Positions 4,128 through 21,162 of a DNA stretch of 21,196 nucleotides are shown here, one piece after another (the stretch's first letter is position 1; each line of letters opens with the position of its first letter). A program made the translations under genes and the position numbers. Origin of the DNA: Gammaproteobacteria bacterium (GTDB lineage: Bacteria > Pseudomonadota > Gammaproteobacteria > UBA6429); contig QIKU01000254.1 in the NCBI GenBank assembly GCA_003232015.1, positions 1 to 21,196 on the forward strand. Reading direction: 5' to 3'. The notes under the pieces are model-generated. The model was not told the origin of the DNA and did not search any database. It saw only the letters and a list, made by a program, of their open reading frames with translations.

Positions 4128-4141
4128 TTGATATTAATCAA
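4128..4141. promoter_or_regulatory. Perfect FNR-consensus sequence between convergent genes
   Basis: TTGAT-ATTA-ATCAA matches all 10 consensus positions, yet it overlaps the stop codon of the minus-strand 183-aa gene and lies after the stop of the radical SAM gene. No promoter position is evident, so the role is doubtful. Confidence 0.25.
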
Positions 4142-4685
4142 TAATATTCTTCATGATTCGCTTTAAGTGGCGATACATTGCCGGGACTTCAATATCGATC
4201 ATTTGGGATGTTACCCACTTATTATATTTCTCCCCCATAATCCCGGTAATATACTCACCATAGTAACGTTTCATTGCAAAACCCGGACCATTGTCATTAC
4301 TAAAGTCAAACTCGGCATATTCAGCAACACGGCTATTGAGTAAATCAATAAAGTCTTGCTTGTAATTGCCTGTTCCATAGAGCTCATGGTAATTATCCGC
4401 TAAATGTTTGCCACATTTATTGGAGAGTTCACCGATAAAACGCGCCCGCTCATCTTCGTCAAAATATTCTATGGTCATACGGTCAGCAAGATGGATCATA
4501 AAAATTAAATTATCTGCTACTAACTCTAAACGCTGTTTATTACTTTCTGTTTGGTAATCTGCATTTTCGAGGTTTAAAATAGCATCCATCGCTACCTTCC
4601 AAAGGTTATACGCAATTACACCCGCTTCTTCTTCAATAGAATGCGACTTGTCTTGCTTATGCCATTTCATTTTAAGTCTAACCAC
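4134..4685 (-). CDS. Unrecognised helical protein, 183 aa
   Basis: The frame starts at a GTG with GAGG seven bases upstream; the ATG at codon 6 (MKWHKQDKSH) has no good ribosome-binding site, so GTG is preferred. The protein looks soluble and largely alpha-helical, with many charged residues, no signal peptide and no convincing membrane segment. Noticeable stretches are IAYNLWKVAMDAIL near the N-terminus, LADRMTIEYFDEDERARF in the middle and KRYYGEYITGIMG plus VPAMYRHLKRIM towards the end. No catalytic motif stands out. It converges with the radical SAM gene and its start lies about 110 bp from the ATG of the divergent 349-aa gene, so the last two could share a control region. I do not recognise the family. 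Confidence 0.7.
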   Translation of the reverse strand: MVRLKMKWHKQDKSHSIEEEAGVIAYNLWKVAMDAILNLENADYQTESNKQRLELVADNLIFMIHLADRMTIEYFDEDERARFIGELSNKCGKHLADNYHELYGTGNYKQDFIDLLNSRVAEYAEFDFSNDNGPGFAMKRYYGEYITGIMGEKYNKWVTSQMIDIEVPAMYRHLKRIMKNIID

Positions 4686-4798
4686 GTGGATACCTCGATA
4701 ATATATTGCTGTTCTGGTTTTGGTTTAAAACGCATGCTACGCTTAGGGTGTATTTTACTTTGTTATGGCTCCCGTTACCAACCTTGTATGAGGCACTA

Positions 4799-5848
4799 AT
4801 GGACGCGATATGCTCTAAAACATTACATAAGCTGCGTGATATTGTTCAATATAACTGCCATATAGCAGATGCAAATCATGCCGGCAATTACACCCTCTGT
4901 ATTTACCTTCTAAAAATGCGTGAATACTACCGCTGGGAACAACAAATATCCCCCTCAGTAAAACTAGAAATGGACGACGTAGGCCAGTGGTTGCGTGAAC
5001 GTGAAAAATTATGGGATAAAGTTGGATCAAAGTCCTACCAGCCAATCCGTTTTAACAGTCAGGAGTTTGATCCCTTTGATGCAACATTAATTAATGCTGA
5101 ACTCAACAAACAGGGGTTCGTCTACAGTGCAGGCTTAGGCGCTAAATTAACCCCGCATTTCTTTTTAGCCAAACTCGAAGCAAAAGAAACACAAGGTAAT
5201 TACACGATTTATATTTCATCAACCGAATATGCCCGTGACCTCACTTCTCCGCCTGCCATGACCTTAGGCAACAACATTTTTATTCGAAAAGAATCCATCA
5301 AACGAATGATATGGGAACGCTACGACCAGTGGTTATGGAACAAGCCCGACAATGCCATGAAAAAAGCCATTGAATGTTACGACTTTAACCATATTGATAG
5401 CGCGCTTGAAGAAATGACCAATAACGAAATTGAAAATATTATCTTGCATGAAATAGGCGAAATACAGGCCGGGTTGATTTTAGGAGAACAATGGGAACAA
5501 CTGATTTTAAACGTACCCCAAACTCAGGCGGAGATTATGCTAAGAGCCATACGCGATCATTTAGCAGATACCATAACAACCCTGCCCACTTTATTGCACA
5601 ATAACAACAAGGCATCTATTCATTTTTACTTTTCAAACCTGACCCATATGCGCAAACATCTTAACCCAAAATTACTTGCCGCATATAATGAATGGCTATT
5701 ATCAGGTGATTTTAATCCACTGAAAAATCTGGTTATAACATGCCGCAACCACTGGCTGGCACTCACTGAAAAAATCCTGAAAATACACCACAATAATAAA
5801 CAACCACAAAAACAAATAGAAACATTGATTGAAGCCAGCCGTTTGTAA
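4799..5848 (+). CDS. Unrecognised cytoplasmic protein, 349 aa
   Basis: The frame is open from 4706, but the ATG at 4799 (MDAICSKTL) has GAGG five bases upstream, while the first 31 codons read like translated promoter DNA, so the shorter start is chosen. The protein has an N-terminal helical part, a mixed segment around residues 80-170 (YIPIR-like strands; IYISSTEYARDL; NNIFIRKESIKRM) and a helical C-terminal half. An NIILHEIGEIQAG motif near residue 210 looks superficially like a HExxH metalloprotease helix but lacks the second His, so I do not call it a protease. It lies upstream of the 2OG-oxygenase on the same strand with a 36-bp gap, probably in one transcript. The family is not recognised. 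Confidence 0.7.
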   Translation: MDAICSKTLHKLRDIVQYNCHIADANHAGNYTLCIYLLKMREYYRWEQQISPSVKLEMDDVGQWLREREKLWDKVGSKSYQPIRFNSQEFDPFDATLINAELNKQGFVYSAGLGAKLTPHFFLAKLEAKETQGNYTIYISSTEYARDLTSPPAMTLGNNIFIRKESIKRMIWERYDQWLWNKPDNAMKKAIECYDFNHIDSALEEMTNNEIENIILHEIGEIQAGLILGEQWEQLILNVPQTQAEIMLRAIRDHLADTITTLPTLLHNNNKASIHFYFSNLTHMRKHLNPKLLAAYNEWLLSGDFNPLKNLVITCRNHWLALTEKILKIHHNNKQPQKQIETLIEASRL

Positions 5849-5884: not shown

Positions 5885-6487
5885 ATGCCATCACCCCATA
5901 AAAGCAAGCTCACAACCATTAATGAAGTTAAAGAAAATACTTTTATTTTTGAAAAAGAAAATGCCTTAACTGCGCAGCAATGCGAGCATATGATTAAGCA
6001 ATTTGAATCACACGAAGACGAACAATATCTGGGTCGCATAGGTCAACAGGCAACCGAAGACACCAGCATTAAAAAATCAACCGACATGGTTGTAAGCGGT
6101 AAAGAACATTTTAAAGATATCGACGCAGCACTGTTTAATTCAATTAAAACCGCCTTAATCGAATTTAGAGAAGCCTACCCTTATTTTAAAGGCCCATTTA
6201 AAGATATGGGCTATGCCATTCAACGTACTAACCCGGGCGAACATTACCACTGGCATATTGATGGCGGTAGTCATGATTTTAGCCAGCGCCAACTTGTAGC
6301 CGTCTGGTATTTAAACAACGTCGCCAGCCCCGGCGGTGAAACCGAATTTTTATTCCAAAATGTAAAAATAAAACCACAACAAGGAAAACTTATTTTATTT
6401 CCGCCTTTCTGGACACATGAGCATCGCGGTGTAACGTTGGAAAAAGGCGTTAAGTATATAGCCACAACCTGGATTGTTTTTAGATAA
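5885..6487 (+). CDS. 2-oxoglutarate/Fe(II)-dependent oxygenase, prolyl-4-hydroxylase-like, 200 aa
   Basis: The double-stranded beta-helix core is clear. The iron ligands are H124 and D126 in HWHIDGG and a distal His in FPPFWTHEHRG (H178 or, by spacing to the 2OG-binding K190, H180). The strands QLVAVWYLNN, GGETEFLF and GVKYIATTW are typical of P4H-type enzymes of this size. Such enzymes hydroxylate protein or small-molecule substrates with O2 and 2-oxoglutarate; the substrate cannot be read from the sequence. It follows the 349-aa gene by 36 bp and its start has only a weak ribosome-binding site, so it may depend on upstream translation. The next sequence downstream is gene debris. It is one of three unrelated 2OG-Fe(II) enzymes in this window. 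Confidence 0.87.
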   Translation: MPSPHKSKLTTINEVKENTFIFEKENALTAQQCEHMIKQFESHEDEQYLGRIGQQATEDTSIKKSTDMVVSGKEHFKDIDAALFNSIKTALIEFREAYPYFKGPFKDMGYAIQRTNPGEHYHWHIDGGSHDFSQRQLVAVWYLNNVASPGGETEFLFQNVKIKPQQGKLILFPPFWTHEHRGVTLEKGVKYIATTWIVFR

Positions 6488-11181: not shown

Positions 11182-11956
11182 TCAAAAATGATAGGTAGGA
11201 ACAGATGAGTTGGAATATTGAGGTGTGATCAGACCAAGAAGAACCGCCTTGGCAACGGCCTGACTACGATTAGCGACATTCAGTTTCTTGATAACATTTT
11301 TAAGGTGAAACACGACAGTTGCTTCGGAGATGATCAATATTGTGGCAATCTCACAGGCTGTTTTTCCTTCGGCCGTCCACAAAATGCACTCTTTTTCCCG
11401 TGTAGTAAGCTCTGTTTTTTTATCGTTGCGGTGGACTGAGTTCGTTAGGTTCCAGATACTTTCGTGAATATAAGGTTGCAATGCATTGAGGCACAATGTG
11501 GTGTAGCGGTAGGCAGTATTATCAGGTGTGAGCTCATGGTCAGTGGCGATGCTGTATCAGGCCACTTTCGCCGGTGAATCTGGGCATGCCGATGCCGACA
11601 CCGTTAGATATGCTAAATTCATACGCTTCTGAAAAAAAATTTTGCACTTCTTTATCGTGTTGTTTGTTGAAGTGACACCAACTATAGGGTTCCTGATAAT
11701 TGAAGCAGTGCTGCGCAACCGGGTCGATATTAATATATCCTTTCTCAGCGTAGCGCGCCACCCACTCTGTCGGGTAATCACTAACAAACAGGCTGGTGCT
11801 TCGCGTAAAGCCATTTGGAATTTTGATGACGTATGTCACATAGCCACAATCGAGCTGTTCCCGTATATCCATGAGAACCGATTTAATATTTGCCAAATCC
11901 GTACTGGACTGGATGTTCTCGACCGTGTCGATGAGCCATTGTTCCAAAATTGCCAC
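11182..11956 (-). pseudogene. LuxR-type (autoinducer-binding) regulator, frameshifted
   Basis: The first frame (11956-11540, GTG start) has an autoinducer-binding domain with the conserved W-x3-Y, D-P and W residues in EWVARYAEKGYINIDP and EPYSWCHF. It runs to FTGESGLI and then goes out of frame. Reading one base shifted, the protein continues SIATDHELTPDNTAYRYTT and on into the LuxR helix-turn-helix: ELTTREKECILWTAEGKT, IATILIISEATVVFHLKNVIKKL. A single extra base near 11551-11556 accounts for the break. Repaired, it would be about 257 aa, a normal length. No luxI-type synthase is in the window, so it was an orphan (solo) receptor. A small dyad (CTATCA-AAAA-TGATAG, 11179-11194) overlaps the stop but has no T run. 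Confidence 0.83.
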
Positions 11957-14012: not shown

Positions 14013-14345
14013 TTAGTTAAGTCCACCAATAATAATTTCCGTTTCATTGATGTCACCATCTTCAGAAATTCTTATTGCGGTTGACCCCGGCACTTTATAT
14101 AAAACATAGGCTGACATCATGACTATCATTTGCTTATTTTCAGTTTCAATCGCGGTTAATATTTTATCGCCAACGACCTGACAGCGCTGTTCTGCATTTA
14201 AATTATCAACCCAGGAACGGCTCATTTGCCAGCCCTTATCCATGTCTTTATCCATTTTCTTAAAAAATTCCTGTGCTTCGGTTAGCATCATATCGGGAAC
14301 ATCGACAGGAATAGTATTACCACTAATGAGAACATTTAAGAGCAT
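14013..14345 (-). CDS. Unrecognised small protein, 110 aa
   Basis: A complete gene with AAGG eight bases before the ATG and a consensus -10 box upstream. The protein begins MLLNVLISGNTIPVDVPDMM, has a charged helical middle (EAQEFFKKMDKDMDKGWQMSR), a strongly hydrophobic but short IVMMSAYVLYKVPG stretch, and an acidic tail ending IIIGGLN. No signal peptide or catalytic motif is evident. It is the first gene of the minus-strand set leading into the FAD oxidoreductase and GtrA-like genes, and it is divergent from the YbiX/PiuC hydroxylase, so it may share regulation with that gene. I do not recognise the family. Confidence 0.72.
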   Translation of the reverse strand: MLLNVLISGNTIPVDVPDMMLTEAQEFFKKMDKDMDKGWQMSRSWVDNLNAEQRCQVVGDKILTAIETENKQMIVMMSAYVLYKVPGSTAIRISEDGDINETEIIIGGLN

Positions 14346-14441: not shown

Positions 14442-15113
14442 ATGCTATTAAAAATTTTATCCTTATTACCCCATGAGCGTCTGCAAACCGTTACGTCTCT
14501 TTTGAAAGATGCTCCGTTTGTAAACGGTACTTTATCGGCTGGCAGCGCCGCCAAGCGGGTGAAAAATAACGAAGAAGTGGCGATGAATGCCGCGCAAATG
14601 AACCAGCTCAATAATATCGTTATGGGCAGCCTGGTTGCGAACCCACAATATAAAAGTGCCGCCCTGCCGCATCGCATTGCCGCTCCTTTTTATGCGCGTT
14701 ATAGCGAAGGGATGGAATACGGTGACCATGTGGATGATCCGGTGATGGGCGCAGCTGATCGTTATCGGTCAGATATATCTATCACTGTCTTTTTGTCCGG
14801 CCCTGACGACTACGAAGGCGGCGAGTTAGCGATTAACACCAGCTTTGGAGAACAGCTCGTCAAGCTCAATGCTGGAGATGCGGTTTTATACCCGTCCTCA
14901 AGCCTGCACCACGTTAATCCGGTGACACGCGGAGAGCGGCTGGTTGCGGTTACCTGGGTGCAAAGCATGGTGCGCAGTGCTGAGCAAAGGGAATTGCTCT
15001 ACCAGCTAAATATAGCGAGAGAAAGCCTGCTTCAAACGAAGCCAGAAGCCGAAGCAAGCAAAACAGTGGATATATGCTACGCAAATTTAGTTCGCATGTG
15101 GGCTGATTGTTGA
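14442..15113 (+). CDS. ybiX: YbiX/PiuC-type Fe(II)/2-oxoglutarate dioxygenase, 223 aa
   Basis: Length and sequence fit the PKHD-type hydroxylase YbiX/PiuC (about 225 aa). The iron site is H96-x-D98 in YGDHVDDP and H156 in the family signature YPSSSLHHVNPVTRG, with the 2-oxoglutarate-binding R166 ten residues on. The strands ISITVFLSGPDDYEGGEL and FGEQLVKLNAGDAVLYP are also typical, as is WVQSMVR after the core. In other gammaproteobacteria the gene is often iron-regulated and lies beside TonB siderophore receptors; here no receptor is adjacent. The ribosome-binding site is weak. Divergent from the 110-aa gene with a 96-bp gap; it converges on the palindrome-rich region to the right. Confidence 0.9.
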   Translation: MLLKILSLLPHERLQTVTSLLKDAPFVNGTLSAGSAAKRVKNNEEVAMNAAQMNQLNNIVMGSLVANPQYKSAALPHRIAAPFYARYSEGMEYGDHVDDPVMGAADRYRSDISITVFLSGPDDYEGGELAINTSFGEQLVKLNAGDAVLYPSSSLHHVNPVTRGERLVAVTWVQSMVRSAEQRELLYQLNIARESLLQTKPEAEASKTVDICYANLVRMWADC

Positions 15114-15145: not shown

Positions 15146-15179
15146 GCAACGCCAGCTTGCTAAGCTGGCGTTGCATAAG
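15146..15179. repeat. 34-bp palindromic repeat, copy 1
   Basis: A perfect 13-bp stem (GCAACGCCAGCTT with its complement) and a 3-base loop at 15146-15174, followed by ATAAG. The full 34 bases recur exactly at 15370-15403. There is no T run, so it is not an ordinary terminator. Confidence 0.85.
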
Positions 15180-15182
15180 CAA

Positions 15183-15261
15183 GTAGCCCGGATGGAATAA
15201 AATGCAATCCGGGAAGCAGCCCTCAACCTTCCCGGATTTCGCTTCGCTGCATCCAGACTAC
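15183..15261. repeat. REP-like dispersed palindrome, copy 2
   Basis: Same plan as the element at 879-958: opens GTAGCCCGGATGG, internal arms AATCCGGGAA and TTCCCGGATT, closes GCATCCAGACTAC. It contains the CGCTTCGCTGCATCC sequence often found in such gammaproteobacterial elements. It sits between the two identical palindromes. Confidence 0.78.
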
Positions 15262-15369
15262 GTACTTAAGTTCCCTAACTGCTTAGGGATTTGGAGCAGT
15301 TATTTAGCCCCCATTTTATTATCTTTACGGGCTCTTACACTAATAAAGAATTTGTACGCAACTCCAACA

Positions 15370-15403
15370 GCAACGCCAGCTTGCTAAGCTGGCGTTGCAT
15401 AAG
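15370..15403. repeat. 34-bp palindromic repeat, copy 2
   Basis: Identical to 15146-15179. Two exact copies 224 bp apart in one intergenic region suggest duplication or insertion of a small mobile palindrome. Confidence 0.85.
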
Positions 15404-15455: not shown

Positions 15456-15485
15456 AAAAAAGGCCACCCTATTCCTAAGGTGGCC
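15456..15485 (-). terminator. Rho-independent terminator of the TauD-like / Cas6-like / RspA operon
   Basis: Read on the minus strand: a GGCCACC...GGTGGCC stem (7 bp, 10-base loop) followed by six T. It lies 25 bp after the stop of the 69-aa gene and ends the minus-strand operon. Confidence 0.85.
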
Positions 15486-15510: not shown

Positions 15511-15720
15511 TTAGAAGAAACGTGTTGAACCTTTTTCTTCGTGAGCCATAGTATTTAACTGCATAGCCAGCTCATCGTATTTTGCAACATAGTTGTATAA
15601 TAAGTGACCTTCCTTGCCTGCGTAGTAATCTTTCATATCAATGCCATTTTCCTGTTCAAAGGCAATGAATTTCTTTTGCATTTCCAGCATTTCAGCAATG
15701 ATTTTAGTTTTATCGCTCAT
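15511..15720 (-). CDS. Small helical protein, 69 aa, last gene of the RspA operon
   Basis: GAGG lies eight bases before the ATG and a terminator lies just after the stop, so this is a real short gene. The protein is predicted to be almost all helix: an N-terminal amphipathic stretch (KIIAEMLEMQKKFIAFEQEN), a central GIDMKDYYAGKEGHLL and a second helix (YNYVAKYDELAMQLNTMAHEE). It has no cysteine, signal peptide or membrane segment. It follows the DsrC-like gene by 151 bp and shares its terminator, so it probably acts with that protein or its partners. I do not recognise a named family. Confidence 0.75.
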   Translation of the reverse strand: MSDKTKIIAEMLEMQKKFIAFEQENGIDMKDYYAGKEGHLLYNYVAKYDELAMQLNTMAHEEKGSTRFF

Positions 15721-15871: not shown

Positions 15872-16213
15872 TTAATAGCCACCTTTACGGATACTTTGTG
15901 GCAAACCGCCAATTTTACGGCCTTGTTTAGAAGGCATCCCCGGAAATAACTGGTACATATATTTAGAGGTTAGTTTTTTACCCCATTTTTTAGCCATATC
16001 TTTCATAATGCTACGTTCATTGGGCTCAGTACCCGGACTTTCAGTATATTCTGCACGTAAGTACTTAACCACATCCCAATGTTCATCCGTCATTTCCACA
16101 TCTTCATCAACAGCTATTTTGCTGCCAAGTGCTTCAGTCCACTCGTCAAAATTAACTAAGTAACCATTATCTGTTACTTCTACTGATGTACCATCTGCTT
16201 CCAGTGTTGGCAT
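15872..16213 (-). CDS. rspA: DsrC/TusE-like protein lacking both redox cysteines (RspA type), 113 aa
   Basis: The length and fold landmarks are those of the DsrC/TusE/RspA superfamily: GYLVNFDEWTEALG near the N-terminus, LTDEHW-like MTDEHWDVVKYLRAEY in the middle, and the C-terminal arm KYMYQLFPGMPSKQGRKIGGLP. In true DsrC this arm carries two cysteines that form the sulfur-carrying trisulfide; in TusE one remains. Here the positions corresponding to them read Arg (in QGRKIGG) and Lys or Gly (end RKGGY), and the protein contains no cysteine at all. The name RspA (regulatory sulfur-related protein) has been proposed for such cysteine-free members, some of which are thought to act in regulation. 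GGAG lies seven bases before the ATG. An FNR-like box lies 166-180 bp upstream. Confidence 0.87.
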   Translation of the reverse strand: MPTLEADGTSVEVTDNGYLVNFDEWTEALGSKIAVDEDVEMTDEHWDVVKYLRAEYTESPGTEPNERSIMKDMAKKWGKKLTSKYMYQLFPGMPSKQGRKIGGLPQSIRKGGY

Positions 16214-16378: not shown

Positions 16379-16392
16379 ATGATTTATATCAA
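16379..16392. promoter_or_regulatory. FNR-like box upstream of rspA
   Basis: ATGAT-TTAT-ATCAA matches 9 of 10 consensus bases. It overlaps the last codons and stop of the Cas6-like gene, about 167 bp before the rspA start, so a separate rspA promoter with a long leader is possible. Chance matches of this quality are expected in AT-rich DNA. Confidence 0.3.
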
Positions 16393-17075
16393 TCAGGATT
16401 GGCTGTATCAATCCCTTTTTGGGGGATAAATAGCCCACAGCCCAATTTACGTTCCATTCCAAGGCCATTTTCCTGTAATTTAATCGAATCCTCTTTTTCA
16501 AGATCTGCAAGCATTAAACCTCGAGTAATCAGCTGCCTGTCAGGTAACTGAATCGTTCGTTCAAGCCCACACATCATTTTTTTAACTTCAATGCCAAGTG
16601 CATTACACTGTGTAGCACAAGCTTGCATAAATTCATCCTCAGATTGCTCCTGGCCGTTAACCACCACATGGCGAGCAAAAATAATATTCATCTCACTTAG
16701 CTTACGCACAACGGATTGACCAATCGTTAACTCATACTCATCCACCATCAATGTTTGTCCGGTTAATTGTTGAGTTTCCGCTAATTGTTCCTTTGGGATT
16801 CGTAATATTAGTTTTTGCCGTCGGGATAAATACAATACTTCATTTTCTTTATTTTCAGGGCGCAACCAGCCATTACCTGACTCCGCACCGTATATCTGGT
16901 GAATGCCTATTTGTGGATTTTCAACAATCCACGGCAAAAGCTGCTCTAACGCACTCGATAATGCATGTGCATTATCTAAGGGCACCGCCTTACCTTGTAT
17001 ATTGAAAACAACATCGACAATATTATCAGGAACGATAAATTCGGCTTTCTTGTCTTTATTTTCTGACCAGTACAT
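16389..17075 (-). CDS. Cas6/Cmx6-like CRISPR-RNA endonuclease homologue, 228 aa, no CRISPR array nearby
   Basis: Overall plan fits the Cas6 of the MYXAN subtype (Cmx6-like): an N-terminal strand plus helix with VPLDNAHALSSALEQLLPWI, the IGIHQIYG segment, a strand pair LYLSRRQKLILRIP, the LAETQQLTGQTLMVDEYELTIG block, and the C-terminal GLGMERKLGCGLFIP glycine-rich loop (residues ~204-218) typical of RAMP-fold Cas6 proteins. Candidate catalytic His are H37 and H59. Cas6 cuts CRISPR precursor RNA at hairpins; no array, cas1, cas2 or effector gene is in the window. The start has AGG six bases upstream and the 61-aa gene ends 30 bp before it. The family call rests on motif memory and needs a profile search; an alternative is an unrelated RAMP-like RNA-binding protein adopted by sulfur metabolism. 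Confidence 0.68.
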   Translation of the reverse strand: MYWSENKDKKAEFIVPDNIVDVVFNIQGKAVPLDNAHALSSALEQLLPWIVENPQIGIHQIYGAESGNGWLRPENKENEVLYLSRRQKLILRIPKEQLAETQQLTGQTLMVDEYELTIGQSVVRKLSEMNIIFARHVVVNGQEQSEDEFMQACATQCNALGIEVKKMMCGLERTIQLPDRQLITRGLMLADLEKEDSIKLQENGLGMERKLGCGLFIPQKGIDTANPD

Positions 17076-17105: not shown

Positions 17106-17291
17106 CTATCGCGCGGATGTGAATCGCGCTTCTAATTGTTGTTCCCAGTTTTCCGGCGTATCTGGAAACGGCGGTTTTACATCCATCTGGAAAAACATCT
17201 CACCTTGTCTGGCAACGGCTTCCACCGCTTTAACAAGATCCTCATACGTGTCCACGTCATTACCAATAAGTAAATCACTTAACATCAACAT
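17106..17291 (-). CDS. Small protein, 61 aa, between the TauD-like and Cas6-like genes
   Basis: AAGGG lies seven bases before the ATG, and the gene is packed between neighbours with gaps of 45 and 30 bp, so it is very likely real. The protein has an N-terminal helix (MLMLSDLLIGND), a second helix (TYEDLVKAVEAVARQGEMFF), then a proline-rich turn VKPPFPDTPENW and a short helical tail. It has no cysteine, signal peptide or transmembrane helix. Its place in the operon suggests it serves the Cas6-like or dioxygenase protein. No family is recognised. Confidence 0.7.
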   Translation of the reverse strand: MLMLSDLLIGNDVDTYEDLVKAVEAVARQGEMFFQMDVKPPFPDTPENWEQQLEARFTSAR

Positions 17292-17336: not shown

Positions 17337-18248
17337 TCAGTTGCACTGATCATAATAGCGTGCGCGGTAAATCAGCCGTTTACTTTCGGGTGTATCCTGT
17401 TCTTCAAAGGCCGTTCTATTATGTAGCACATTATTACAAAGCACGCCTTGCCCAGGCTTTAGCTTGTGCGTAAATATAAACGCCGAATCACCCGCTAAAT
17501 ACTGCGTAATTTCAGCTAAAGCCTGTTTTAGCAGCGAATTATCATCCCACTCAATACTGCGTGTTCTGGCGGTATAACGTAGATGGAGGCAACCGCTACA
17601 ATTATCAAGGCTAAAGACAGGGCCCGTTTGTGCAGCACGTTCTGCTCCCACTTCCTCATTCGCTGGAATGGTTAATGCCTTTTTATCCATTAATGCTCGA
17701 ATAAAGTCTGGGTTCTTGTCCCGTAAGTGGATATAGAGAATCTCTGGATCTAAATACTGATTTTCGCCACCTAGCGGTGCATTATTCACGCAATGCAGCA
17801 ACATACCCCGAATGGTATTTTCCGGTTTATTATAGTAGCCGTCTGTGTGCCAGCTAATCTTCCGGTTGGAATAAGGGATATAACCGGCATGGCGTCCGGC
17901 ATTCTTTGTTTGTAAGGAGCTAATACTGTCTTTATCTGCACATATATTAGTATCCAGGTTTTTATAGCCAAATTGCGCAGCAAACTGCTTAATGGCTAAC
18001 TTATCCACTTGATCAGGGTCCTTAGCCTGATACACGCACATATTCGTTTTACAGAGCAGCGAATGGACAGCTGTATGCTCATCGGCCGTTAAAGCCATAA
18101 AGTCATTGATCGTAACGATCAGTTCCTCACTGGATTTTGGGTAATCCAGCCACTTTTGCTGTCGCCAGGCGCTGTAGGTCGCGTCATTATTCAAATCAAA
18201 ATGAGCTAATTCAATGGCTTGACTAACTATTGGTGATGACACTTGCAT
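17337..18248 (-). CDS. TauD/TfdA-like 2-oxoglutarate dioxygenase, 303 aa
   Basis: The metal site is H134-x-D136 in ISWHTDGYY, with the distal H276 in NNVLHNRTAF; R291 or R295 near the end (RLIYRARYYD) would bind 2-oxoglutarate. These motifs and the length of about 300 aa are those of TauD/TfdA/CAS-like dioxygenases. TauD itself releases sulfite from taurine, which would fit a sulfur oxidiser, but no taurine transporter is adjacent and specificity cannot be read. It contains several cysteines (for example NCSGC near residue 217) that are unusual for TauD. A good AGGA lies five bases before the ATG. It is the first gene of the minus-strand operon that ends with rspA and the 69-aa gene, and it is divergent from dsrA. 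Confidence 0.87.
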   Translation of the reverse strand: MQVSSPIVSQAIELAHFDLNNDATYSAWRQQKWLDYPKSSEELIVTINDFMALTADEHTAVHSLLCKTNMCVYQAKDPDQVDKLAIKQFAAQFGYKNLDTNICADKDSISSLQTKNAGRHAGYIPYSNRKISWHTDGYYNKPENTIRGMLLHCVNNAPLGGENQYLDPEILYIHLRDKNPDFIRALMDKKALTIPANEEVGAERAAQTGPVFSLDNCSGCLHLRYTARTRSIEWDDNSLLKQALAEITQYLAGDSAFIFTHKLKPGQGVLCNNVLHNRTAFEEQDTPESKRLIYRARYYDQCN

Positions 18249-18779
18249 TTACTTCCTAAATTCGTACAATACGCGCACATTTTATATGTGTATTAGCCCA
18301 ATTAAAGCATTAAAATTGGGGGAACTTCCTGAAAAATATTTCATTCGTTGGTTGATTGCGAACTGAATAAAGTTAGCTAAACTATATCTGGGCTTTAAAT
18401 AGCAAGTTAGAAGTAAGATTCAGCTCAGCCTACAAAAAATTTTATAGACATATTTAATCAACCCAATTAAATCACAGTGGCGGCTTCGGGTTATATACCC
18501 ACCCCGAAGTATATTGCAACATATTGATTTAATTAAATAACTAGTAGATTTTAGATTATATTGCAACGAATTAAACAGGAAAGAGTTTAGATAATATCGC
18601 GGCGCCTATCCCTAAAGGGATAAGCCTAAATGCTTAATTCACCCCATCAGGTGGGTTTTCGGCATGCGGCTCAGCCCCTAGACTTCGTCGCAAATTACAG
18701 AACCCGCTAAAGCAGGTTTTAGATATCAAGAATTTAATTTAGTAGTGTAGCTAACAGGTAACGCCTCAAGGAGAAAACC
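18249..18779. promoter_or_regulatory. Long divergent control region and structured leader of dsrAB
   Basis: 531 bp separate the TauD-like start from dsrA; no gene is seen. It contains an inverted repeat CCCAATT/AATTGGG (18297-18320), a CTTCGGG/CCCGAAG hairpin (18484-18509), two copies of TATATTGCAAC (18510-18520 and 18557-18567, 47 bp apart), and two hairpins with TAAA loops (18607-18622 and 18701-18718), the second ending in four T like a weak attenuator. A small CACC/GGTG hairpin lies at 18640-18653. An AAGGAG site stands at 18768-18773 before dsrA. No known riboswitch class was recognised. Confidence 0.55.
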
Positions 18780-20027
18780 ATGGCTAAAAGTCAATATCCA
18801 ACACCCATGCTCGACGAGCTAGAAAAAGGTCCCTGGCCTTCATTTATATCCGGCATCAAGAATTTACGTGATGATCACCCAAATGAAAAAATTAACAAAG
18901 TGGCAAACTCCTTATTAGGCCAGCTAGAGCATTCTTACGAAACACGTAAAGGCTACTGGAAAGGTGGTACGGTTTCTGTGTTTGGTTACGGTGGTGGTAT
19001 TATTCCTCGTTTCTCTGAAGTGGGTGAAGCCTTCCCTGAATCAAAAGAATTCCACACATTACGTGTACAGCCTACTCCTGGTAACTACTACACTTCTGAC
19101 ATGTTAAACCAACTGGCAGACAGCTGGGAAAAATACGGTTCAGGTCTTGTTACTTTCCACGGCCAAACAGGCAACATCATGTTCATCGGTGCTGACACAG
19201 ATAACATCCAGCACTTCTTTGATGAAATCAACGAATACGGTTGGGATTTAGGCGGTGCGGGCCCATGTGTACGTACGGCTATGTCATGTGTAGGTGCTGC
19301 ACGTTGTGAAATGTCCTGCACAAACGAACATGCTGTTCAACGTTACCTGGTTAACGAATTTGTTGATGACGTTCATCGTCCAGCACTTCCTTACAAATTT
19401 AAATTCAAAATCTCTGGTTGCCCTAACGATTGCCAAAATGCGATTGAGCGTGCTGACTTTGCTGTTATCGGTACATGGCGTGACGATATAAAAATTGATG
19501 CTGCTGAAGTTAAAAACTACCTCGGTACAAAAGGTGAGCAATACTTAATGGATAACGTGATTTCACGTTGCCCATCTGCTTGCATGACTCTGAAAGACAG
19601 TGCAATTGAAATTGACAACCGCAACTGTGTACGTTGTATGCATTGCATCAATGTATTACCAAAAGCACTTTCTCCAGGCGATGACAAAGGTATAACCCTT
19701 CTTATCGGTGGCAAACGTACTCTTAAAATCGGTGATTTAATGGGTACGGTTATTCTTCCATTCAAAAAACTTGAAACTGAAGAAGATTACGAAAGCCTTG
19801 TAGAAATCGCTGGTGACACAATCGATTTCTTTGCGGAAAATGCGCTTGAGCATGAACGTACTGGTGAAATGATTGAACGTATCGGTCTGGTTAACTTCCT
19901 TGAAGGTATCGGTATCGACGTTGATCCAAATATGGTTTCGAGCCCACGTCAATGTTCATATGTACGTATGGACGGCTGGGATGAAGAAGCTGCAGCATGG
20001 TTCGACCGTAAAGCAGAACAAGCATAA
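18780..20027 (+). CDS. dsrA: Dissimilatory sulfite reductase alpha subunit, 415 aa
   Basis: DsrA with DsrB forms the alpha2beta2 siroheme enzyme that, in sulfur oxidisers, releases sulfite from DsrC-bound sulfur in the cytoplasm. The siroheme/[4Fe-4S] motif C-x5-C...C-x3-C is complete: C170 and C176 in SCVGAARC, C214 and C218 in GCPNDC. The inserted ferredoxin domain shows CPSAC (264-268) and CVRCMHC (283-289). An AAGGAG site seven bases before the ATG fixes the start, and the length is normal. dsrB follows with a 58-bp gap, in the same transcript. Expression is likely controlled through the long structured region upstream. The call is firm; the reverse (oxidative) direction is inferred from dsrE-like coding next to dsrB. 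Confidence 0.98.
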   Translation: MAKSQYPTPMLDELEKGPWPSFISGIKNLRDDHPNEKINKVANSLLGQLEHSYETRKGYWKGGTVSVFGYGGGIIPRFSEVGEAFPESKEFHTLRVQPTPGNYYTSDMLNQLADSWEKYGSGLVTFHGQTGNIMFIGADTDNIQHFFDEINEYGWDLGGAGPCVRTAMSCVGAARCEMSCTNEHAVQRYLVNEFVDDVHRPALPYKFKFKISGCPNDCQNAIERADFAVIGTWRDDIKIDAAEVKNYLGTKGEQYLMDNVISRCPSACMTLKDSAIEIDNRNCVRCMHCINVLPKALSPGDDKGITLLIGGKRTLKIGDLMGTVILPFKKLETEEDYESLVEIAGDTIDFFAENALEHERTGEMIERIGLVNFLEGIGIDVDPNMVSSPRQCSYVRMDGWDEEAAAWFDRKAEQA

Positions 20028-20085: not shown

Positions 20086-21162
20086 ATGGCAATGGCAGAT
20101 ATGCGCGAGCCGATTGAATCAGGCTGCCCAGACGGGTTCCAATACATGCATCCAGCAATGCGTAAAAACTTTGGCATGTGGAGCTATCATGAAGATCCAC
20201 AACCCGGTGTTTTAAAGCATGTTTCTAAAACAGGCGATACTATTTACACTGTAAAAGTTGGTACACAACGTATCCTTGATTTGTTTACACTGCGTAAATT
20301 AACTTCAATTGCAGATGAATTTGCAGACGGCTACGTTCGCTTCACTATTCGTTCAAACATTGAATACTATGTTACCGACGAAGCAAAAGTGCAGCCTTTA
20401 ATTGCAGCTATTGAAAAAGAAGGTTTTGTTGTAGGTGGTACGCGTAACTCTGTTGCGATGATTTCACACACACAAGGCTGGTTACACTGTGATATTCCAG
20501 GTACAGATGCATCCGGTGTTGTTAAATCAATGATGGATGAACTGATTGATGAATTCAAACAGTGGAACATGCCTAACCGTGTTCATATCACCACTTCTTG
20601 CTGCCAGATTAACTGTGGTGGCCAGGGTGATATTGCAATCAACATTCAACATACCAAGCCACCTAGAATCAGACATGATTTAGTTGCTAACGTATGTGAA
20701 CGTCCTACTGTTGTAGCACGTTGCCCGGTAGCAGCGATTCGTCCTGCAGTGGTTAACGGCAAACCTTCTTTAGAAGTGGACGAGAAAAAATGTATCTGTT
20801 GTGGCGCATGTTTCCCTCCTTGCCCGCCAATGCAAATCAATGATCCAGAGCATTCAAAACTTGCTATATGGGTTGGTGGTAATCACTCTAATGCACGTAG
20901 CAAACCTTCTTTCCAGAAACTGGTTGCTGCTGGCATACCCAACAATCCACCTCGTTGGCCTGAAGCCACGGGCATTGTTAAGCGTATTCTTAAAGAATAC
21001 AAAGAAGGCGCTAAAGATTGGGAACGTATTAACGACTGGATCGACCGTATCGGTTGGCCACGTTTCTTCGAAGTTACCGGTTTACCTTTCACCAAGTATC
21101 ATATTGATAACTGGCGTGGTGCACGTAACTCGTTAAATGCTTCTACTCATATCCGCTTCTAA
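20086..21162 (+). CDS. dsrB: Dissimilatory sulfite reductase beta subunit, 358 aa
   Basis: DsrB is the catalytic partner of DsrA. Its siroheme-region cysteines are seen at GWLHCD (C135), SCCQINCGG (C172, C173, C177). The ferredoxin domain has the full C-x2-C-x2-C-x3-CP motif (C236, C239, C242, C246) preceded by RCPVAAI. AGGAG lies eight bases before the ATG; a second ATG two codons later is possible. Length is in the usual range (about 355-380 aa). It is followed after 16 bp by an ATG with AAAGGA, the probable start of dsrE, which gives the dsrABE order of sulfur oxidisers. Confidence 0.98.
   Translation: MAMADMREPIESGCPDGFQYMHPAMRKNFGMWSYHEDPQPGVLKHVSKTGDTIYTVKVGTQRILDLFTLRKLTSIADEFADGYVRFTIRSNIEYYVTDEAKVQPLIAAIEKEGFVVGGTRNSVAMISHTQGWLHCDIPGTDASGVVKSMMDELIDEFKQWNMPNRVHITTSCCQINCGGQGDIAINIQHTKPPRIRHDLVANVCERPTVVARCPVAAIRPAVVNGKPSLEVDEKKCICCGACFPPCPPMQINDPEHSKLAIWVGGNHSNARSKPSFQKLVAAGIPNNPPRWPEATGIVKRILKEYKEGAKDWERINDWIDRIGWPRFFEVTGLPFTKYHIDNWRGARNSLNASTHIRF

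Follow-up and report, generated by a model that had tools for sequence, protein, structure and literature searches.

The window, by which is meant the whole 21,196-nucleotide stretch of gammaproteobacterial DNA that was analyzed, carries an orphan Cas6/Cmx6-like gene of 228 aa (16389..17075, minus strand) within a run of minus-strand genes that leads away from a divergent dsrA. The run comprises a gene for a TauD-like dioxygenase (17337..18248), which is divergent from dsrA and is the positional counterpart of dsrQ as treated in the main text of PMC7596348; a gene for a conserved 61-aa protein without a Pfam family, sm62 (17106..17291); the Cas6-like gene; a gene for a DsrC-like protein that lacks cysteine and ends in RKGGY (15872..16213); and, as its final member, a gene for a conserved 69-aa protein, sm69 (15511..15720), past which a consensus scan alone marks a terminator-like hairpin with a T run (15462..15485, minus strand). 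On the plus strand, dsrA (18780..20027) and dsrB (20086..21162) match TIGR02064 with 610.5 bits and TIGR02066 with 533.9 bits, respectively.

Several other features of the window were recorded. GerE (LuxR-type) and autoinducer-binding domains occupy adjoining minus-strand ORFs (11182-11496 and 11540-11956), a pair that looks like a split LuxR regulator, and a DUF6866 protein, 110-aa and 183-aa proteins without a Pfam family, and two 2-oxoglutarate oxygenases also recur around the locus in relatives (window positions 4706-5848, 14013-14345, 4134-4685, 5885-6487, and 14442-15113). A 29-nt near-perfect palindrome is present in two identical copies 224 bases apart (15146-15174 and 15370-15398; chance expectation 0), with an imperfect inverted repeat (15176-15268) between them; the doubled hairpin was considered as a candidate and rejected, as it is not part of the gene run and none of 128 loci contains its 25-nt core.

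The usual task of Cas6 is to cut the guide RNAs that serve CRISPR immunity. The window protein scores 142 bits against TIGR02807 (Cas6/Cmx6), well over the curated cut-off of 98.85 bits, and possesses the double ferredoxin-like fold by which Cas6 is recognized, together with a glycine-rich C-terminal loop whose G204, G212, and G214 are present in 201/201 homologues and G206 in 199; family and fold are thereby established, and the Cas6 homologue reported in a first-pass annotation, like the underlying observation of an orphan Cas6/Cmx6-like gene in a sulfur locus, is confirmed. R92 is likewise kept in all 201 homologues. The candidate active-site histidines are H59 (193/201) and H35 (163/201), the window protein having N35 and H59; none of the 201 homologues lacks both, a result no better than chance because only about 1.5 such losses would be expected.

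No model for cas1, cas2, cas3, or an effector was matched among the 20 other window ORFs when searched with PADLOC, the matches that did arise there reflecting shared domains only: radical SAM ORFs with viperin models (best E 2.4e-16), 2-oxoglutarate oxygenases with models classed there as CRISPR-associated, an FAD desaturase model, the end of a CARF model with the GerE ORF (E 1.2e-6), and three further weak matches. An array scan, which gave a signal in three of the eight cyanobacterial plasmid loci taken along, found no CRISPR array in the window, and none was found in the orphan loci of relatives that were read; array-like repeats in four of the loci (L022, L023, L076, and L090) were rejected as CRISPR, being tandem or spaced copies whose intervening stretches are alike too. 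Beside the gene there is neither the cas3, cas5, cas7, and cas8 nor the cas1/cas2 and array that would mark a type I-MYXAN system, and in relatives, which carry the Cas6-like gene at the same place without a CRISPR locus, the neighbors are dsr genes. The earlier description of the gene as an orphan within 21 kb therefore stands.

Conserved linkage to dsr genes and co-occurrence with dsrA

A database search returned 906 homologues, at least 120 of them as individually listed records, and a scan with an alignment, over contigs in which each species is represented by a single genome, returned 162 relatives, from which the best 80 loci were retained; a single-sequence scan of the same genome contigs yielded no relatives, and no homologue was found among IMG/VR viral contigs. 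The record titles of these best 80 of 162 name sulfur oxidizers, among them Thiohalophilus, Thiohalobacter, Thioalkalivibrio, Thiogranum, Thioploca, Parabeggiatoa, and Thiomargarita, alongside metagenome-assembled genomes labeled just Gammaproteobacteria, Proteobacteria, and similar. The 80 loci were chosen by likeness to the query and are therefore not a random sample. Where at least 3.3 kb of upstream sequence was available (58 of the best 80), a divergent dsrA lies nearby in 51/58, a TauD gene in 50/58, and the 61-aa gene in 58/58, and where 1.2 kb of downstream sequence was available (73 of the best 80), a DsrC-like gene is found in 67. The 61-aa gene is thus the most constant neighbor, and in giant sulfur bacteria and their kin (L022, L023, L028, L041, L070, and L076, some with short flanks) it alone, of the genes sought, adjoins the Cas6-like gene. 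The Cas6-like copy of Thiomargarita nelsonii (L070, 8021-8683) has an in-frame TAG.

The arrangement extends beyond this sample. Among 20 further hand-chosen loci, dsrA is present in 16, TauD in 12, the 61-aa gene in 14, and the DsrC-like gene in 15, and in the far carriers G634, G661, and G685 (33-35% identity) the Cas6-like gene is again a divergent neighbor of dsrA and is followed by DsrC-like and TauD genes on its downstream side. In three genomes of 1.4-1.6 Mb (L086, L087, and L088), the Cas6-like gene is instead divergent from what appears by eye to be an RNase III-Era-RecO-PdxJ-AcpS run, the 61-aa gene being retained elsewhere in the genome. Distances of Cas6 correlate moderately with those of DsrA (Spearman 0.45, 60 loci); the corresponding values are 0.69 with TauD and 0.28 with the DsrC-like protein. 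The tie to sulfur oxidation is accordingly conserved across the loci and genomes surveyed and is not a chance feature of one locus.

Co-occurrence was surveyed at three levels. Every one of the 47 genomes searched, which represent 47 of the 80 loci, holds exactly one Cas6-like copy, and dsrA exceeds the cut-off in 45 of them, is partial in G015, and in G017 is a weak match resembling the paralogous reductases of most genomes. Of 40 genomes from the order to which Thiohalophilus belongs, 29 have both genes, two have the Cas6-like gene alone, two have dsrA alone (at E 1e-40), and seven have neither; among all Cas6-like matches in this order, two are pieces. In the class (369 genomes), 111 have both, seven the Cas6-like gene alone, seven dsrA alone, and 244 neither (Fisher P 5e-76, kinship ignored), such that dsrA is present in 111/118 carriers and the two genes travel together within the class. 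Six of the seven dsrA-only genomes have less than 2 kb of contig upstream of dsrA (G143, 195; G152, 6; G182, 658; G195, 1881; G276, 150; G420, 1781 bases), and since the Cas6-like gene starts 1.7 kb upstream of dsrA in the window, and farther off when a TPR gene lies in between, these contigs end before its expected place or only just extend to it; no TauD gene was seen in the 1781-base stretch of G420 either.

The association is not universal: in a phylum sample of 309 genomes, dsrA is present in 52, of which four have the Cas6-like gene and 48 do not, and five dsrA loci (L114 and L120-L123) have TauD and the 61-aa gene with no Cas6-like gene seen, L114 reaching the end of its contig and an apparent siroheme-synthase gene (by eye) following in L120, L122, and L123. 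For these reasons the Cas6-like gene does not belong to core Dsr function; it is a lineage-bound accessory of the Dsr sulfur-oxidation gene set.

These counts also bear on whether the protein processes, in trans, the CRISPR RNA of arrays located at other genomic sites, a role that we consider highly improbable. Such a role would accord with the curated Cas6/Cmx6 cut-off having been passed and with Cas1 in 14/47 carrier genomes, in one of which (G024) about 22 kb of a shared contig separates it from the Cas6-like gene; however, Cas1 was not found in the other 33 (the genomes may be incomplete), the dsr linkage is conserved, no array accompanies the gene in the orphan loci read, and in the class sample Cas1 is present in 51/118 carriers versus 85/251 non-carriers (P 0.08), showing no significant link between the two. 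The Cas6-like gene and dsrA are both retained in five small genomes (about 1 Mb), in none of which Cas1 was found.

Departures from CRISPR-associated Cas6

A total of 201 orphan homologues (74 of set A2, 103 more database proteins, and 24 further loci) were compared with eight cyanobacterial plasmid homologues. Type I-MYXAN cas operons contain six of the eight; the L108 homologue adjoins cas genes and has a TniQ gene nearby, and the run around the L101 homologue is devoid of cas genes. The last of these, on Gloeobacter morelensis plasmid pGMOR1 (3808-9844), is a Cas6/Cmx6 homologue without annotated cas neighbors, and its run also holds a PAPS-reductase-family protein and a cupin. Position 146 is E in 201/201 orphans versus P in 8/8 of these relatives, and position 166 is K in 197/201 versus V or I in the eight; an insert, SGNGWxR, is missing from the eight, and within it W70 is kept in 198/201 orphans and R72 in 191/201, the three far carriers named above (here L109-L111) being without the GNGW insert. 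R92 and the glycine loop are common to both groups. In a quick tree, one starred branch (SH-aLRT 98), at which long branches meet, parts eight CRISPR/plasmid rows from 98 others; the eight rows are the cyanobacterial plasmid homologues, and no gammaproteobacterial CRISPR Cmx6 is among the rows. The MYXAN-type layout ascribed to the protein at first pass thus holds at the level of the family, but the family-specific residues and insert differ from those of CRISPR-associated MYXAN Cas6.

The changes at E146, K166, and the insert could signal a new role that does not involve RNA. The fold alone may have been kept and RNA work lost, the protein having come to serve the Dsr proteins as scaffold or assembly factor, for example by holding the cysteine-free DsrC-like and 61-aa proteins; the strength of the family-specific shifts is consistent with this, as is the apparently metabolic character of the partner genes, which are not RNA genes. 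Retention of the glycine-rich loop and R92 as in CRISPR relatives, needless for a pure scaffold, argues against it, and we regard this alternative as possible but doubtful.

Candidate RNA targets, partners, and comparison with known systems

The conserved place beside sulfur-oxidation genes, coupled with the lack of visible CRISPR genes, suggests that Cas6 has been reused on the bacteria's own RNA. Upstream of dsrA, a conserved, promoter-like element (18607..18684, plus strand) contains the dyad TATCCCTAAAGGGATA, a second, imperfect dyad (18640-18656), and TAGACT (18679-18684); its pattern is matched in 56/66 loci, at the wrong place in at least four (L004, L015, L020, and L033). Because its letters rather than pairing alone are conserved, the element was dropped as an RNA hairpin and, from its sequence, is probably a promoter. 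Within the putative dsrA leader, a small hairpin (18699..18720, plus strand) is a candidate RNA target only, the window's own leader folding unexceptionally (whole-leader z about -0.1). An intergenic folding test gave mean z values of -0.94 for dsrA leaders (54), -0.35 for the gap from Cas6 to the DsrC-like gene (82), -1.2 for that from the DsrC-like gene to sm69 (57), -0.32 upstream of TauD (70), and -2.77 past sm69 (60), the last as terminators would give. When dsrA leaders were tested by position (48 of 76 leaders, once near-copies were removed), mean z was -1.15 at about +10 to +60 of the putative start, -0.55 farther downstream, and about 0 in three control stretches, with 23% of leaders at P under 0.05; since the start site is a predicted one and at least three leaders (those of the window, L012, and L020) are wrongly anchored, this signal is suggestive only. 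Most dsrA leaders of Cas6-free genomes are without the anchor used in this test, and Rfam models gave just three miRNA-model matches in the window, far under gathering scores. The 5'-proximal stem-loop of dsrA leaders is accordingly a weak lead as an RNA target. Of the earlier proposal that the protein was recruited for cellular RNA linked to sulfur oxidation, the link to sulfur oxidation is borne out, and the cellular-RNA part has gained this weak lead only.

The partner proteins offer further clues. The 61-aa protein has no Pfam family, with 12 stray matches, each in one member, among 53, and its model has no fold match (best E 3.7). The DsrC-like protein, a member of the TusE/DsrC family (TIGR03342), is cysteine-free in 78/86 cases, whereas DsrC of dsr operons has two cysteines within its last 15 residues in 55/56 matches. 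The literature searched gave no support for RspA as a name for cysteine-free DsrC proteins. It is conceivable, although improbable, that the Cas6-like and DsrC-like proteins form an RNA-docking unit that couples sulfur flux to modification of tRNA or other RNA, by analogy with TusE on MnmA in tRNA thiolation. Membership in the TusE/DsrC family, the position of the DsrC-like gene directly downstream in 67/73 loci, and the precedent of the TusE-MnmA relay, as described in the portion of PMC3397948 consulted, are in its favor; however, proteins without cysteine cannot carry sulfur, and giant sulfur bacteria retain the sm62-Cas6 pair without a DsrC-like neighbor.

The reading we favor, and hold to be moderately probable, is that a Cas6-family protein left CRISPR immunity, became a fixed part of the Dsr locus in many Gammaproteobacteria, and binds hairpin RNA of its own cell, tuning expression. 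The protein would contact RNA through its retained double ferredoxin-like fold and glycine-rich loop and would bind, and perhaps slowly cut, a hairpin, thereby adjusting how strongly the dsr genes, or a linked RNA, are expressed; its partners or signal inputs may be the 61-aa and DsrC-like proteins. A more specific version, in which the domesticated CRISPR endoribonuclease would act post-transcriptionally on reverse dissimilatory sulfite reductase through the 5'-proximal stem-loop of dsrAB mRNA, tuned by the cysteine-free DsrC-like protein as sensor and by the 61-aa partner, is rather unlikely; if true, it would represent a general use of Cas6 outside immunity and transposons.

To our knowledge, the settings in which Cas6 is known are CRISPR immunity and transposons guided by CRISPR. 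Here a clade of Cas6 proteins tracks dsrA across the sampled class, even into genomes of about 1 Mb in which Cas1 was not found; this points to a cellular role, one that is testable in cultured strains. Cultured carriers include Thioalkalivibrio sulfidiphilus (L080), Thioalkalivibrio denitrificans (L064), Thiohalobacter thiocyanaticus (L068), and Thiohalophilus thiocyanatoxydans (L006). When a gene of such a genome is labeled 'type I-MYXAN CRISPR-associated protein Cas6/Cmx6', this need not mean CRISPR, and a pathway central to the sulfur cycle gains genes that are unstudied. No description of a dsr-linked Cas6 was found in the literature as covered by titles and abstract openings, subscription papers (e.g., Lenk 2012) being outside this scope, and term look-up found no mention in PMC5728499, PMC10952691, PMC7540712, PMC8226683, PMC11406059, or PMC7596348; the main text of the last, which treats dsrQ, mentions neither Cas6 nor CRISPR.

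Among known systems, DsrQ, the TauD-like protein encoded divergently from dsr (Lenk 2012, as cited in the main text of PMC7596348), has its likeness in the gene of such kind upstream in the window run. The Cas6 of S. solfataricus, for which the portion of PMC3652601 consulted describes function without the canonical His and an emphasis by its authors on chaperone-like roles on RNA, shows that a Cas6 can do without a fixed catalytic His; unlike the orphan protein of dsr loci, it is a CRISPR enzyme. The Cas6 of the type I-B CAST Cascade (8fcj) belongs to an RNA-guided transposon and is without the insert of the orphan clade. A further known relation is type I-MYXAN Cas6/Cmx6 (TIGR02807, PF09559), with which the orphan clade shares the curated cut-off, the double ferredoxin-like fold, the glycine-rich loop, and R92, and from which it is set apart by the absence of cas neighbors and by its typical SGNGWxR insert, W3, W49, E146, K166, and K220.
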